Below, piece after piece: positions 23,200 through 27,132 of a DNA stretch of 64,000 nt; the stretch's first letter is position 1; each line of letters begins with the position of its first letter. Made by a program: the position numbers and the translations under genes. The notes beneath the pieces are model-generated. The model ran no database searches, was not told the origin of the DNA, and was given only the letters and a program-made list of their open reading frames with translations. Source of the DNA: an uncultured Paracoccaceae bacterium (GTDB lineage Bacteria; Pseudomonadota; Alphaproteobacteria; Rhodobacterales; Rhodobacteraceae); contig CANLSM010000016.1 in assembly GCA_947493745.1 (NCBI GenBank), positions 1-64,000 of the forward strand. The letters are read 5' to 3'.

Positions 23200-25407
23200 T
23201 CAGCCCTCGATTTCGCTGAAGATCGCCACCCGGTTCATGGTCACGCGGATGCGGTTCAGCAGGCAGAGCCGGTTGCGACGCACAATCGCACTGTCCGCAT
23301 TCACGGTCACCTTGTCGAAGAACGTATCAATCGGCGCGCGCAGGCTGGCAAGCGCGGTCATAGCGGCAGCGAAATCCTCGGCCTCCAGCGCGGGCGCGAT
23401 CGTCGCCTCGACCTGATCGAGTGCCGTAAAGATGTCGGTTTCGGCCTCACCTTCACTCAGCTTCGGATCGGGGTCGAGTTCATAGGACACGCCGTCCTTC
23501 TTCTCCTCGACATTGAGGATATTGTTGGCCCGCTTGTACCCGCTGAGCAGGTTCGCCCCGTCCTCGGTATCAAGGAAGGCCTGAAGGGCACGAGTGCGGT
23601 TCGCCAGCAGAACGAGATCGTCGTTCTGCGGCATCGGCAGGCAGGCGTCGATCACGTCATGGCGGATACCGTCCGAGCGAAGATGAACCTTGAGGCGTTC
23701 ATGGAGGAAGGCAAGGAGGTCGCCGACCTCATTTCCCCCAAAACCACAACGTTGGATAACTACTCGGCGTCCTGCTTTAGTTAGTTCTTTAAGATCAAAT
23801 TTATTTGAGAGTAGTTTGTATGAGCCAACTTCTAGAGTCTTTTCACCCTCCTTAGCGAAAGCAATAGTATCCGGAATCAAAGTAGCTGAATAATTAAGTA
23901 ATAACTGACGAAGGCGGATACGCTTTTTGCCTTGCTCCATTATCCGAATAACCCCCAACGCCGCCCGCCGCAGCGCAAACGGATCCTTACTGCCTGTGGG
24001 TTTCTCGTCAATCGCCCAGAACCCGGTCAGCGTGTCGATCTTGTCAGCCAGCGCCACAGCAACTGACACCGGCTCGGTCGGCACGTCGTCGGACGGCCCC
24101 AGAGGAGCATAGTGGGTCTGGGCCGCCTCGGCGACCGCGTCGCTCAAGCCCTGCACCTTGGCATAGTAGCGGCCCATGACGCCCTGCAATTCGGGGAACT
24201 CATAGACCATCTCGGAGGCCAGATCGGCCTTGGCGACGCGGGCCGCCTGCGCGGCCTCGTCCGCATCGGCACCCACCCGCGGTGCGATCTCGCGGGCGAG
24301 GCTTGCGATCCGGTCAATCCGCTCCGCCTGGGTGCCGAGCTTGGCGTGGAACGTCACGTTTTCCAGCGGCTTCGCCATGCCCTCCAGCCCGACCGACCTA
24401 ATCGTGCGCAGGTCATTCTCCCAGAAGAACTTGGCGTCTGACAGCCGCGCGGCCAGCACCTTGGAGTTGCCAGCCAGGATCGTAGCCCCGTTATCAGCCG
24501 TCTCGCGGTTGGCAACCGTCACATATCTCTCGATCCGGCCCGTCTTCGGATTGCGCACGGAGAAGAATTTCTGATGCTCGCGCATCGAGGTCTGCAGCAC
24601 CTCCGGCGGCAAGTCGAGGAAATCCGCGCCGATATCGCCCATCAGCACGACAGGCCATTCGACCAGCCCGGCGACCTCGGCCAGAAGTCCTTTGTCCTCA
24701 ACCACTTCAAGGCCCTGAGCGAAGGCCATGTTGGTTGCGTCCGCCCAGATCGTCTCGGCGCGCGCGCCTGCGTCCAGCACTACATGTGCGCGGCCCAGCT
24801 TCTGCTGATAATCCTCGAATGAGGTCACACGCAGCTGCGCGGGCGCCATGAAACGGTGGCCATGGGTCGTGTCGGACGCGGAGATGCCTGCAATCTCGAA
24901 CGGCACCACGCTGGCGCCTGCCTCATCGCTGAGCACGCAAAGGATCGAGTGGAGCGGGCGCACCCAGCGCAGGCTCCCTGCCCCCCAGCGCATCGACTTG
25001 GGCCATGGGAAATTCTGGATGATGCCCGGCATGACCTCGGCGATGATCTCGGAGGCCGTCCGCCCTTCCCGGGTGATCTTCGCGAACCAGACCTGCCCCT
25101 TCTTGTCGTCGCGCGCCTCAAGATCATCCTTTGTCAGTCCGGTTGAGCGCAGGAACCCCTCAAGCGCCTTCTCGGGCGCGTCCGTGCGCGGACCCTTGCG
25201 TTCTTCGGTCAGGGTCGGGGACATCGCGGTCAGCCCCTCAACCGTCAGGGCGAGCCTGCGCGGGGTTGAGAATGCACCCGCACTCTCATAGGTCAGACCG
25301 GCCTCGACCAGCGCGTCGGTGACCAGCCGCTTCAGATCATCGGCGGCCCTGGTCTGCATCCGCGCGGGGATTTCTTCGGAGAAGAGTTCGAGAAGGAGAT
25401 CAGGCAT
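23200..25407 (-). CDS. glyS: Glycyl-tRNA synthetase beta subunit, with AT-rich internal segment
   Basis: 735 residues from the ATG at 25407, which overlaps the stop of the upstream gene (TGATG); a GTG one codon earlier is possible. With GlyQ it forms the alpha2beta2 synthetase; the beta chain supplies tRNA-binding and HD-like/anticodon domains. MPDLLLELFSEEIPARM is the classical N-terminus and DPFALRRAALGVIRI the conserved middle. Residues about 496-554 are encoded by a markedly AT-rich segment (separate entry), after which conserved sequence resumes (DLLAFLHERLKVHLR). The reading frame is intact throughout. Confidence 0.95.
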   Translation of the reverse strand: MPDLLLELFSEEIPARMQTRAADDLKRLVTDALVEAGLTYESAGAFSTPRRLALTVEGLTAMSPTLTEERKGPRTDAPEKALEGFLRSTGLTKDDLEARDDKKGQVWFAKITREGRTASEIIAEVMPGIIQNFPWPKSMRWGAGSLRWVRPLHSILCVLSDEAGASVVPFEIAGISASDTTHGHRFMAPAQLRVTSFEDYQQKLGRAHVVLDAGARAETIWADATNMAFAQGLEVVEDKGLLAEVAGLVEWPVVLMGDIGADFLDLPPEVLQTSMREHQKFFSVRNPKTGRIERYVTVANRETADNGATILAGNSKVLAARLSDAKFFWENDLRTIRSVGLEGMAKPLENVTFHAKLGTQAERIDRIASLAREIAPRVGADADEAAQAARVAKADLASEMVYEFPELQGVMGRYYAKVQGLSDAVAEAAQTHYAPLGPSDDVPTEPVSVAVALADKIDTLTGFWAIDEKPTGSKDPFALRRAALGVIRIMEQGKKRIRLRQLLLNYSATLIPDTIAFAKEGEKTLEVGSYKLLSNKFDLKELTKAGRRVVIQRCGFGGNEVGDLLAFLHERLKVHLRSDGIRHDVIDACLPMPQNDDLVLLANRTRALQAFLDTEDGANLLSGYKRANNILNVEEKKDGVSYELDPDPKLSEGEAETDIFTALDQVEATIAPALEAEDFAAAMTALASLRAPIDTFFDKVTVNADSAIVRRNRLCLLNRIRVTMNRVAIFSEIEG
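23745..23925 (-). other. In-frame AT-rich segment with foreign codon use inside glyS
   Basis: Bases 23761-23920 hold 60 G/C of 160 by my count, in a gene otherwise near 60 percent GC. The codons are TTA, ACT, AAT, ATT, AAA, GTT rather than the usual CTG, ACC, AAC, ATC. It encodes a Lys-, Tyr- and Leu-rich stretch (NYSATLIPDTIAFAKEGEK and following) between two conserved GlyS blocks where other alphaproteobacterial GlyS proteins, as I recall them, have a shorter Ala-rich linker. No inverted or direct repeats bound it. Confidence 0.7.
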
Positions 25408-25856
25408 CACTCGGTCTTGTTGTATTGGCGCCAGAGGAAGGCGCGGCCATCAGGATACACCGCCACATAGCGGAGGATTTCGTAGGTGGACCCGGTTGCG
25501 GGCGTCTCGTCGCCTGCGACATACGCAATTGCGGCACCACTGTCGATATCGCGGGTCAGGGCCGCGAAGTCGAAGCACTCGAACCATCGGGGGGCGGCGA
25601 GCGGGGTGGCGTCGCTTGCCGCCGGTATGGCCGCAAAGACCTCGGGATTTACCGTGAAGCAGCCCCGGATTTTCAGGGGTGAGGTGCTGGCATCAATGCC
25701 CCGATAATCGGTCACGGGCACCGGCTGCCCCTGCAGGTCGATCTGGCTGATCCCCTCCACCCGGTCGTAGAAGGCATAGACCTGCGTGTAGAAGAGAACG
25801 GCGCCGAGGACGATGACAAGCCCCAGAAATCCGCCGACAAAAATCCGTCCGGTCAT
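25407..25856 (-). CDS. Membrane-anchored protein, DUF6446-like
   Basis: 149 residues. One N-terminal membrane helix (FVGGFLGLVIVLGAVLFY, about 6-23) is followed by a periplasmic domain with two Cys (RGCFTVN, WFECFDF) that could form a disulphide. The sequence resembles the Rhodobacterales family DUF6446, of unknown function. Its ATG overlaps the stop of the VOC gene (ATGA) and its stop overlaps the glyS start (TGATG), so it is translated as a coupled member of the glyQ-glyS operon. Confidence 0.8.
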   Translation of the reverse strand: MTGRIFVGGFLGLVIVLGAVLFYTQVYAFYDRVEGISQIDLQGQPVPVTDYRGIDASTSPLKIRGCFTVNPEVFAAIPAASDATPLAAPRWFECFDFAALTRDIDSGAAIAYVAGDETPATGSTYEILRYVAVYPDGRAFLWRQYNKTE

Positions 25857-26209
25857 GCGTCCTGCCCGAAGCAGACGACGTTGCCATCCGGGTCGGCAAT
25901 CTCGATCTCGCGCATCCCGTATTCGGTCACGGTCGGGCCTTTGAAATCCGCTCCCGCCTCGGTGAGGGATTTTGCGATACCGTCCAGATCGGAGCTGTGA
26001 AAATAGGCGCGCCAACGGTGGTAGGGGGCTTCCGGCCCTTGCCAGGCCTCCAGAAACACCCGCGCTGCGTCGCGGCGGAATATGCCGAAGCCCACGACCG
26101 GATCGCCGGCCTCCTCGGCCACGGAGAAGCCGAGCACCTCGGTCCAGAAAGCCTTGGCACGCTGATAGTCGGAGACGCGCAGGACGGGGATGGAGGATGT
26201 GAGGCTCAT
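25853..26209 (-). CDS. VOC-fold (glyoxalase/bleomycin-resistance-like) protein
   Basis: 118 residues, one VOC unit pair. [20 protein letters not shown] is the classical first beta-alpha element and [16 protein letters not shown] the classical last. VOC proteins are metal enzymes (glyoxalase, dioxygenase, epimerase) or ligand-sequestering resistance proteins; the metal ligands cannot be assigned with confidence. Its ATG overlaps the glyQ stop by ATGA and its stop overlaps the next start by ATGA, placing it between the two GlyRS subunit genes in one coupled operon. Confidence 0.9.
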
Positions 26210-27132
26210 GCCGCCTGCCCCGCTGCCTCGGTCTGCACGAAGGCATCCGCGCATTGTTTGGCAAGCGCCCGGACCCGGCCTATGTAGGCTTGGCGCTCCG
26301 TCACCGAGATCACGCCGCGCGCATCCAGTAGGTTGAAGACATGACTGGCCTTGATGCATTGGTCGTATGCGGGATGGGCCATGACGATGCGTTTGCCGGT
26401 CTTCGGGTCCTCGGCAGGCTCGGCAAGGATGCGGGCGCATTCGGCCTCGGCATCCTCAAAGTGCTTGAGCAGCGTGTCTGTGTCGGCCACATCGAAATTC
26501 CAGCGGCTGTATTCCTGCTCGGTCTGGCGAAAGATGTCGCCATAGCTCAGCGGAATGGGCGATTGCGGGTCGTTGAACGGCATGTCCATGACGTGATCGA
26601 CGCCGAGTATATACATCGCCAGACGCTCCAGCCCGTAGGTCAGCTCGCCCGAAACCGGTTTGCAATCATAGCCGCCGACCTGCTGGAAATAGGTGAACTG
26701 GCTGACCTCCATCCCGTCGCACCAGACCTCCCAGCCGAGACCCCAGGCCCCCAGCGTCGGGCTCTCCCAGTCATCCTCGACAAAGCGGATATCATGCAGG
26801 TCCATGTCCACGCCGATTGCCTCGAGCGAGCCGAGATAGAGCGCCTGAAGGTCGGGTGGCGAGGGTTTGATGATCACCTGATACTGGTAGTAGTGCTGAA
26901 GACGGTTGGGGTTCTCGCCATAGCGCCCGTCGGTCGGGCGGCGCGAGGGCTGGACATAGGCCGCGGCCCAGGCAGTTGACCCCAGCGCACGCAATGTCGT
27001 CGCGGGATGGAAGGTCCCGGCGCCCACTTCCATGTCATAGGGTTGGAGGATGGCACAGCCACGCGCACTCCAATAGGTCTGAAGGCGCAGAATGATTTCC
27101 TGAAAGCTGCGGGGCGCGTTGGTCTGGGCCAT
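26206..27132 (-). CDS. glyQ: Glycyl-tRNA synthetase alpha subunit
   Basis: 308 residues, full length. It carries the catalytic class II core that activates glycine. [33 protein letters not shown]-type N-terminus, [28 protein letters not shown] and [14 protein letters not shown] are nearly invariant in the family. The start has GAGG 7 bases upstream. It heads the coupled series glyQ, VOC, DUF6446, glyS, with a good promoter directly upstream. Confidence 0.97.

Follow-up and report, generated by a model that had tools for sequence, protein, structure and literature searches.

An AT-rich segment of the glycyl-tRNA synthetase beta subunit as a probable allele of an exchanged, polymorphic slot in Rhodobacterales

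Wholesale replacement of a gene segment between near-identical genomes is known from toxins, surface structures and restriction specificity, where difference pays. In rhs/CdiA cassette displacement a conserved gene body carries, at a fixed exchange point, AT-rich and unrelated cassettes that are shared horizontally; the products are toxins, secreted or at the cell surface, whose C-termini are replaceable and whose immunity genes lie next door. HsdS target-recognition domains constitute an internal variable domain, the conserved segments around which serve recombination; HsdS is a dispensable defence, and its variants stay within one fold family. The variable segment of Neisseria pilE is rewritten by gene conversion through short conserved blocks, pilS being a silent store in the same genome. 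Rickettsia palindromic elements are in-frame additions to housekeeping genes, and lineage-specific inserts in aminoacyl-tRNA synthetases are inherited within lineages. Here we consider an AT-rich, in-frame segment of glyS, the gene for the beta subunit of glycyl-tRNA synthetase (GlyRS), in the first 64,000 nucleotides (nt) of contig CANLSM010000016.1 of an uncultured Paracoccaceae bacterium (the window). Comparison with related genes indicates that this focal segment is very probably one allele of a polymorphic slot in Rhodobacterales GlyS, the content of which is exchanged as a cassette. Excerpts of published work on rhs genes (PMC2935791) and on pilE/pilS antigenic variation (PMC10094033) served for comparison.

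The glyS slot resembles rhs/CdiA in its conserved body, fixed exchange point and AT-rich unrelated cassettes, but it lies internally in an enzyme that is cytosolic and essential. Like HsdS, it has an internal variable domain flanked by conserved segments, whereas the glyS cassettes share no detectable common family. As in pilE/pilS, the variable segment lies between short conserved blocks, yet neither the focal cassette nor the cassette family A7 turned up in a second copy. Rickettsia palindromic elements form repeat families in many genes, while the glyS slot holds many families in one gene. The conserved insert found in many slots, class A, is an extra domain in a synthetase and so recalls the lineage-specific synthetase inserts; the slot differs from these in changing between near-identical genomes. 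The exchange process is of a known type, while its site and pool have, to our knowledge and in the literature searched, not been reported; no published account of a hypervariable GlyS segment was found in literature lying mostly outside subscription journals. A table passage in PMC8711792 lists glyS among the genes with single-nucleotide polymorphisms in phage-resistant E. coli, a weak hint that we do not use as evidence.

The focal glyS lies on the minus strand at 23200..25407 (23203-25407 plus the stop codon) and encodes 735 amino acids (aa). It is an intact GlyRS beta gene of the bacterial (alpha-beta)2 type: TIGR00211 matches over the full length of the profile (residues 3-733; 747 bits against a cut-off of 300), PF02092 scores 608 bits, and comparison of the focal GlyS with solved GlyS structures gave 7yse_C with 633 residues aligned (Z 35.7, rmsd 5.5). 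Within this gene the exchangeable cassette occupies 23722..23919 on the minus strand (66 aa, GlyS residues 497-562), with a GC content of 0.40 versus 0.64 in the flanking gene. An earlier note on this DNA had counted 60 G/C among the 160 bases at 23761-23920; the count is correct, and the stretch overlaps almost completely with the 160 bp of lowest GC in the whole window (23770-23929, 58 G/C; the next lowest stretch has 68). The low GC is far beyond chance, as the 54 inserted codons hold 62 G/C, 6.9 standard deviations under 54-codon draws from the remaining glyS, and the minimum among 20,000 such draws was 71. The reported shift to A/T-ending codons was also borne out, with a third-position GC of 0.24 in the inserted codons versus 0.80 in the remaining gene. 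Recoding the cassette amino acids with the codons of the remaining gene gives a GC of 0.58, and noncoding DNA of the window has a GC of 0.57 by a rough greedy call of open reading frames (ORFs). As noted earlier, the frame stays open through the segment and GlyS similarity returns on either side; the distance from RIRLRQLL to DLLAFLHE is 59 residues rather than the 57 first given.

Such an AT-rich, in-frame segment might be something that only this genome has: a single foreign insertion, an element like the Rickettsia palindromic elements or a run of slow codons. The family-wide pattern refutes this as a complete explanation, and it now appears extremely improbable. The genome holds one copy of the segment, both by DNA search (only glyS matches well, the next match having E 2.3) and by a profile of the focal family (one match in G000, with 12 of 19 first-look candidates scored). 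No repeats, inverted ones included, bound it within 23600-24100, in agreement with the earlier note, whose suggested selfish element finds no support in the single copy and the lack of repeats. The same slot is moreover variable family-wide, and slow codons would leave unrelated sequences in near-identical genomes unexplained. RNA folding of the focal segment was unremarkable (z +1.05), and Rfam at gathering scores gave no match for it. The proposal that a low-GC donor supplied a replacement comes close, for the cassette is AT-rich and glyS genes of other genera carry relatives of it in the same position; the idea of a lone insertion does not hold.

GlyS was sought in 61 genomes of relatives (the less biased set), in genome contigs (the best 80 of at least 581 relatives) and, family-wide, in 394 genomes, nearly one per genus; two genera were searched in addition. 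GlyS reading frames proved very different in length, with similarity that often stops near residue 500 and restarts near 560. The region between the conserved helices RRAALGVIR and DLLxFFHDRLKV was obtained for 185 of 188 loci, and 165 distinct loci were kept after removal of duplicates and of one sequence with Ns (L016). Class A, a conserved insert of about 70 aa with the pattern '...FIDxQLLRH...DEIADHGVFG...', was present in 71, a short loop (14-22 aa) in 13 and something else (28-106 aa; non-A hereafter) in 81, proportions tilted towards class A because the best-80 and 394-genome sets favour full-length matches. In the less biased search, the 31 loci of family f1, including the focal one, comprised 11 class A, 13 others, 5 short and 2 unusable. 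Of 18 genes fetched from outside the family, 16 could be extracted; the slot holds 11-41 aa in 13 of these and 53-70 aa in three (L198, L199, L213). L030 has 74 aa. A genus search around G023, a genus we take to be Paracoccus since L028 (G023) groups with the Paracoccus-titled L062 and L104 at 100*, added 59 genes (30 loci and 29 stretches; G467 was dropped for a broken frame). With L028, L062 and L104 this genus set comes to 62 genes, and the whole collection to 224 distinct glyS. Set beside its relatives, as the earlier note had proposed, the focal segment often has counterparts of similar length and low GC, but their sequences are unrelated.

Grouping at phmmer E 0.002 sorted the 204 segments that reach 25 aa into 22 sequence families, one of which is class A, and 78 singletons; besides class A and the short loop, about 99 other sequence families occupy the slot, mostly AT-rich. 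A Chao1-type lower bound by our own arithmetic (78 singletons, 16 doubletons) lies near 280 families, an estimate that undetected remote similarity would reduce; 'unrelated' here denotes cassettes without detectable sequence similarity and does not imply a different fold. Slot lengths span 14 to 152 aa, and the replaced content is often about 30-150 aa. Variants of one template that differ at adenine-derived positions, as a diversity-generating retroelement would produce, were not seen among the 22 families and 78 singletons, a reverse transcriptase not having been sought.

Loops of 17 aa recur in distant genera (L285, L288, L290, L291, L293, L298, L300, L017, L056, L059, L072 and L098). They look alike, several reading 'FAKGYPGADxx', and the first seven of these loci have normal GC there. 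These loops may represent the empty state of the slot. One of them, L098, comes from a record titled Nocardioides marinus; its glyS stands on a starred branch with Leisingera, and the record is probably mislabelled.

Turnover of the slot content is seen between very similar genes. Over the 5' ~1.47 kb the glyS genes L179 and L180 share 98.5% identity; downstream of the slot they stay at 0.93-1.00 per 100-bp bin, apart from a value of 0.89 in the first bin and from the last bin, which is cut. Their cassettes are unrelated, a class A insert of 71 aa (GC 0.55) facing an 89-aa orphan (GC 0.47). The two bins adjoining the L180 cassette (0.89 and 0.93) contain synonymous changes toward the codons that accompany other non-A cassettes, and these flank changes are, on sequence grounds, an import trace. 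Unrelated cassettes also distinguish L045 from L188 (94% identity) and L058 from L064 (92.5%), so that three pairs of near-identical genes hold unrelated segments at one fixed point, as in cassette displacement. In the G364 genus 5 of 12 genomes lack the plain class A insert and are mutually different; in the G023 genus, among genes with a full flank and a cassette of 25 aa or longer, 15 of 1377 pairs have a family in common, and the 25 closest pairs never do.

Cassette families also recur in distant hosts, the other mark of cassette displacement: this holds for L060/L307, L023/L286/L304, L075/L256, L010/L262 and the focal family. On a tree of the flanks (FastTree, 161 rows), the distribution of class A and not-A requires 37 changes or more, of which starred branches enforce 20; the labels are more clustered than in shuffles (mean 52 changes), which indicates some inheritance. 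In L039, L041, L062 and L104 the glyS slot holds relatives of the focal cassette that are 67-68 aa long, with L019 weaker. Identity in this family is 41-44% over ~99 columns that include the flanks and 29-30% within the cassette (two pairs measured). Its 5 rows on the flank tree need 4 changes, and it is present in three other lineages, while G001, the other genome of the focal genus, has a 17-aa loop in the slot. Family A7 occurs in 5 of 101 G023-genus genomes, always in glyS; the next matches have E 0.003 or worse, and neither of the two that were inspected is glyS. For the focal cassette and A7, the two cases covered, there is thus no sign of a silent store; glyS in other species may be all the pool that is needed.

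The cassette of L177 (2992-3243) is mosaic-like, with an N-terminal part resembling L157, L093 and L174, after which it continues with 'EISDHGVFGALIEAIKAK', as in class A. This arrangement suggests that recombination may occur within cassettes as well.

The conserved flanks differ at synonymous sites between non-A and class A genes, and the codon difference is concentrated beside the cassette. A 3' signature, GACCTCCTCTCCTTCTTCCACGACCGCCTCAAGGTC, covers the 36 nt after the cassette: in non-A genes 653 of 808 codons match it, where 374 are expected from the gene's own usage, compared with 399 of 743 (337 expected) in class A and 82 of 131 (58 expected) in short-loop genes. The 5' signature (codons -5 to +5, core GTTATTCGGTTGGTGTTGGAGAATGGG) is matched by 264 of 502 codons in non-A genes (101 expected), 87 of 413 in class A (78 expected) and 36 of 88 in short-loop genes (19 expected). 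The CTC CTC of the arm reaches z +15 in non-A genes versus -0.4 and +0.8 in class A genes; CTC at +9 is high in both groups (+13 and +9.5), and other conserved glyS codons reach z +10 in both alike. In the focal gene the 3' arm (23686..23721, minus strand; 36 nt encoding DLLAFLHERLKV) fits the non-A signature at 30 of 36 positions, and the 5' arm (23926..23952, minus strand), which in gene sense runs from codon -3 to codon +5 as counted from where RRAALGVIR ends, fits its signature only in GTTATTCGG and at scattered bases. No closing RNA stem between the arms was found when genes were compared with synonymous recodings (mean z -0.40 in non-A and -0.70 in class A genes).

We read the arms as homology for cassette exchange, or as DNA travelling with the cassettes, and consider homologous recombination the simplest and the probable route of exchange. 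An alternative, which seems distinctly unlikely, is a mobile cassette with recognised ends, its arms of ~27 bp (5') and 36 bp (3') being used in trans, as ends or targets, by site-specific recombination or homing that moves the cassettes as in-frame cargo. The concentration of the codon signature in two arms and the CTC CTC score would suit it, as would two marginal library matches among 66 cassettes, one with a homing-endonuclease model (E 0.025), the other with a type II restriction model (E 0.036), which are, however, at chance level for so many queries. The 3' signature falls below 30 of 36 positions in 13 of 81 carriers and the 5' match averages 19.9 of 27, the flank changes at L180 extend some 100 bp beyond the cassette, and the one family searched across 101 genomes occurs only in glyS; all of this argues against recognised ends.

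Low GC is common to most non-A cassettes, with a mean of 0.510 in genes of 0.636 and 95% of the 81 lower than their gene; class A averages 0.604 in genes of 0.633. Cassettes of the G023 genus have 0.530 in genes of 0.680 and are lower in 54 of 55. Relaxed codon selection alone was rejected as the cause, cassette GC (0.40, 0.47 and 0.50) lying under the rough host noncoding values (0.57, 0.56 and 0.61) in three genomes.

Simple Nei-Gojobori counts gave the class A insert a ratio of nonsynonymous to synonymous rates (dN/dS) of 0.08-0.17 in 11 pairs, versus 0.01-0.13 in the N-terminal part of GlyS, and the L073 family 0.15-0.28 in three pairs. Judged from these rates, purifying selection acts on class A inserts at the protein level. 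Other cassette families look constrained as well: mismatches by codon position are 0.46/0.35/0.69 (22 pairs, 16 families, 1656 codons), and the glyS frame scores best in 16 of 16 frame tests, the codon-position pattern being absent from the pair L028/L269. None of 133 cassettes (9848 codons) has an in-frame stop, and frames +1 and +2 have stops in 119 and 130; as extraction demanded an intact glyS frame, this states only what an essential gene requires. The hydrophobic content of the cassettes equals that of the GlyS N-terminal part (0.31 each).

The structure predicted for the focal GlyS has a mean predicted local distance difference test score (pLDDT) of 92. Its cassette, predicted as part of GlyS and not alone, has a pLDDT of 83-94 in 10-residue blocks over 491-560 and would form a helix (499-513), two strands (515-520, 523-529), two helices (530-536, 539-544) and a strand (549-553). 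Folding is predicted for the focal cassette only, since residues 519-574 of the L109 cassette fall under pLDDT 50. Protein-level constraint and this predicted fold tend to speak against an intein, an intron or a bypassed segment, for which no closing stem was seen. The HD domain of E. coli GlyRS comprises residues 341-540 (PMC8464048); the tRNA acceptor stem is bound by the loop that precedes H19 together with the first part of this helix (Arg481, Arg482), and Arg531 contacts it too (PMC9908026). By alignment and our own residue count the slot corresponds to about E. coli residues 497-522, between H19 and the Arg531 helix. Lying between H19 and the next conserved helix, it is therefore within the HD domain, after a tRNA-contacting helix, and is not the domain linker for which it had been taken.

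A permissive slot, in which any soluble segment is tolerated at an exposed place, foreign pieces enter and leave by recombination and hypervariability is a by-product, is a less likely explanation, though the most serious of the alternatives. It would account for the lack of any function or partner found for the cassettes, for lengths from 14 to 152 aa and for short and long versions within the same genera. It fits poorly with the purifying selection on class A and the apparent constraint on other families (with a caveat, taken up below, about how these were found), with the compact fold predicted for the focal cassette, with the ordinary hydrophobic content of the cassettes, and with cassette GC below the rough value for host noncoding DNA in three genomes.

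The rarity of such replacements elsewhere bears on the same question. ORF pairs, spurious frames included, were scanned for internal replaced segments with well-conserved flanks in G426/G427 (about 240 kb syntenic, ~98% identical, 877 ORF pairs) and in two G023-genus members (400 kb each, 529 ORF pairs), stretches that amount to ~5-10% of each genome. The glyS gene stands out with replaced segments of 83/101 and 95/109 aa, and the other passing ORFs reach at most 29 aa, a further point against mere permissiveness. A DNA scan of G426/G427 showed high-GC, indel-rich spots of up to ~150 bp within long ORFs near 37.7, 61 and 218 kb, which failed the protein scan.

Overall, the explanation we find somewhat more probable than its competitors combined is a hypervariable GlyS slot, recombined through its arms and with a diversity kept by binding enemies. 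The sequences themselves, in our view, establish that cassettes of about 30-150 aa replace one another in frame between very close genomes; this would happen by homologous recombination via short conserved stretches on both sides, which would carry in some flanking donor DNA. A GlyRS surface targeted by phage, mobile-element or toxin proteins would place the cassette under diversifying selection, and a rare or new cassette would protect its host. Escape from a binding enemy as the cause of the diversity is put forward tentatively, at somewhat less than even chances; it fits best because of the fast turnover, the cross-genus sharing, the orphan AT-rich sequence and the restriction to one gene in the stretches compared.

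Several observations weigh against this explanation. Where dN/dS could be measured it is well under 1, giving no direct evidence for diversifying selection, and the remaining non-A pairs are saturated in dS by the same counts. The codon-position and frame tests lean positive, as the families were found via protein similarity in the glyS frame. Cassette GC tracks host GC in part (slope 0.84, r 0.47), which makes one common recent AT-rich pool too simple. As to the arms, the match figures are optimistic because the signature was picked from the same non-A set; class A 3' flanks are also above expectation (z 5.4), the focal 5' arm fits at 14 of 27 positions only, and what the codon signature marks could be a site-specific element and not homologous recombination. 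Finally, 117 cassettes (66 + 51) searched against family libraries gave single, marginal matches only, and no phage protein, toxin or antitoxin partner was found among them. The best of these matches, to DUF7178 (E 0.0023) and, for one of the 51 cassettes, to PADLOC BrxHI|BrxHII (E 0.0028), are taken as chance like all the single matches, because so many queries were made.

The cassettes might instead be active agents, that is, small immunity, antitoxin or anti-phage domains riding on an essential and constantly expressed protein. In their size and low GC, in having no relatives and in being shared horizontally they resemble immunity and antitoxin proteins, and the chance-level BrxHI|BrxHII match points the same way. 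However, the small number of cassettes and families searched against phage, plasmid and virus collections gave no free-standing relatives, nor did the 101 genomes searched with one family, and we hold this explanation to be improbable. As for a toxin cassette with a neighbouring immunity gene, the 117 cassettes had no convincing library match, gene neighbours across hosts being outside the scope. The collection scans covered the focal cassette and four families (A2, A7, A9, A5) and were seeded by short peptide patterns: the focal cassette has no relatives at E 1 or better in plasmids or phages, and in virus contigs whole GlyS, A7, A9 and A5 gave no match and A2 one weak relative, L250. A virus fold library gave nothing below E 0.2 for the focal GlyS cassette; one short local match, to an Enterococcus phage protein (probability 0.96, 46 columns, E 2.4), came without a displayed position within the model. 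A GroES-like identity of the focal cassette was rejected, the best PDB sequence match (E 0.53) being chance.

Wholesale swapping of a segment is unexpected in an essential housekeeping enzyme, and its occurrence in an aminoacyl-tRNA synthetase suggests an enemy or partner that nobody has described. More speculatively, GlyRS of Rhodobacterales may be a polymorphic self-protection locus with an exchangeable domain drawn from a horizontally shared pool of perhaps hundreds of unrelated families and changing continually because proteins of phages, mobile elements or competitors recognise the enzyme; if true, an arms race would be driving variation in the core machinery of translation. Some hundred unrelated segments grafted into one scaffold and tolerated are also a natural experiment, useful for studying the origin of orphan protein domains and how essential enzymes accept insertions.

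Three further observations concern single sequences. The IMG/VR contig IMGVR_UViG_3300022549_000032 (L253) carries at 1-340 a piece of glyS (residues 443-590) with its own short cassette, after which similarity is lost; it is a phage-tail contig with tail genes from 737 on, and the piece may reflect capture by a phage, the junction of a prophage or a chimeric assembly. A pair of ORFs of 392/393 aa (L325-L344 and L345-L364), which we presume to encode a porin, has two variable stretches of 20-25 aa with normal GC and well-conserved flanks. In the window itself, two small minus-strand ORFs at 25407-26264 and 25853-26440, in overlapping frames, lie between glyQ (26206-27132) and glyS.

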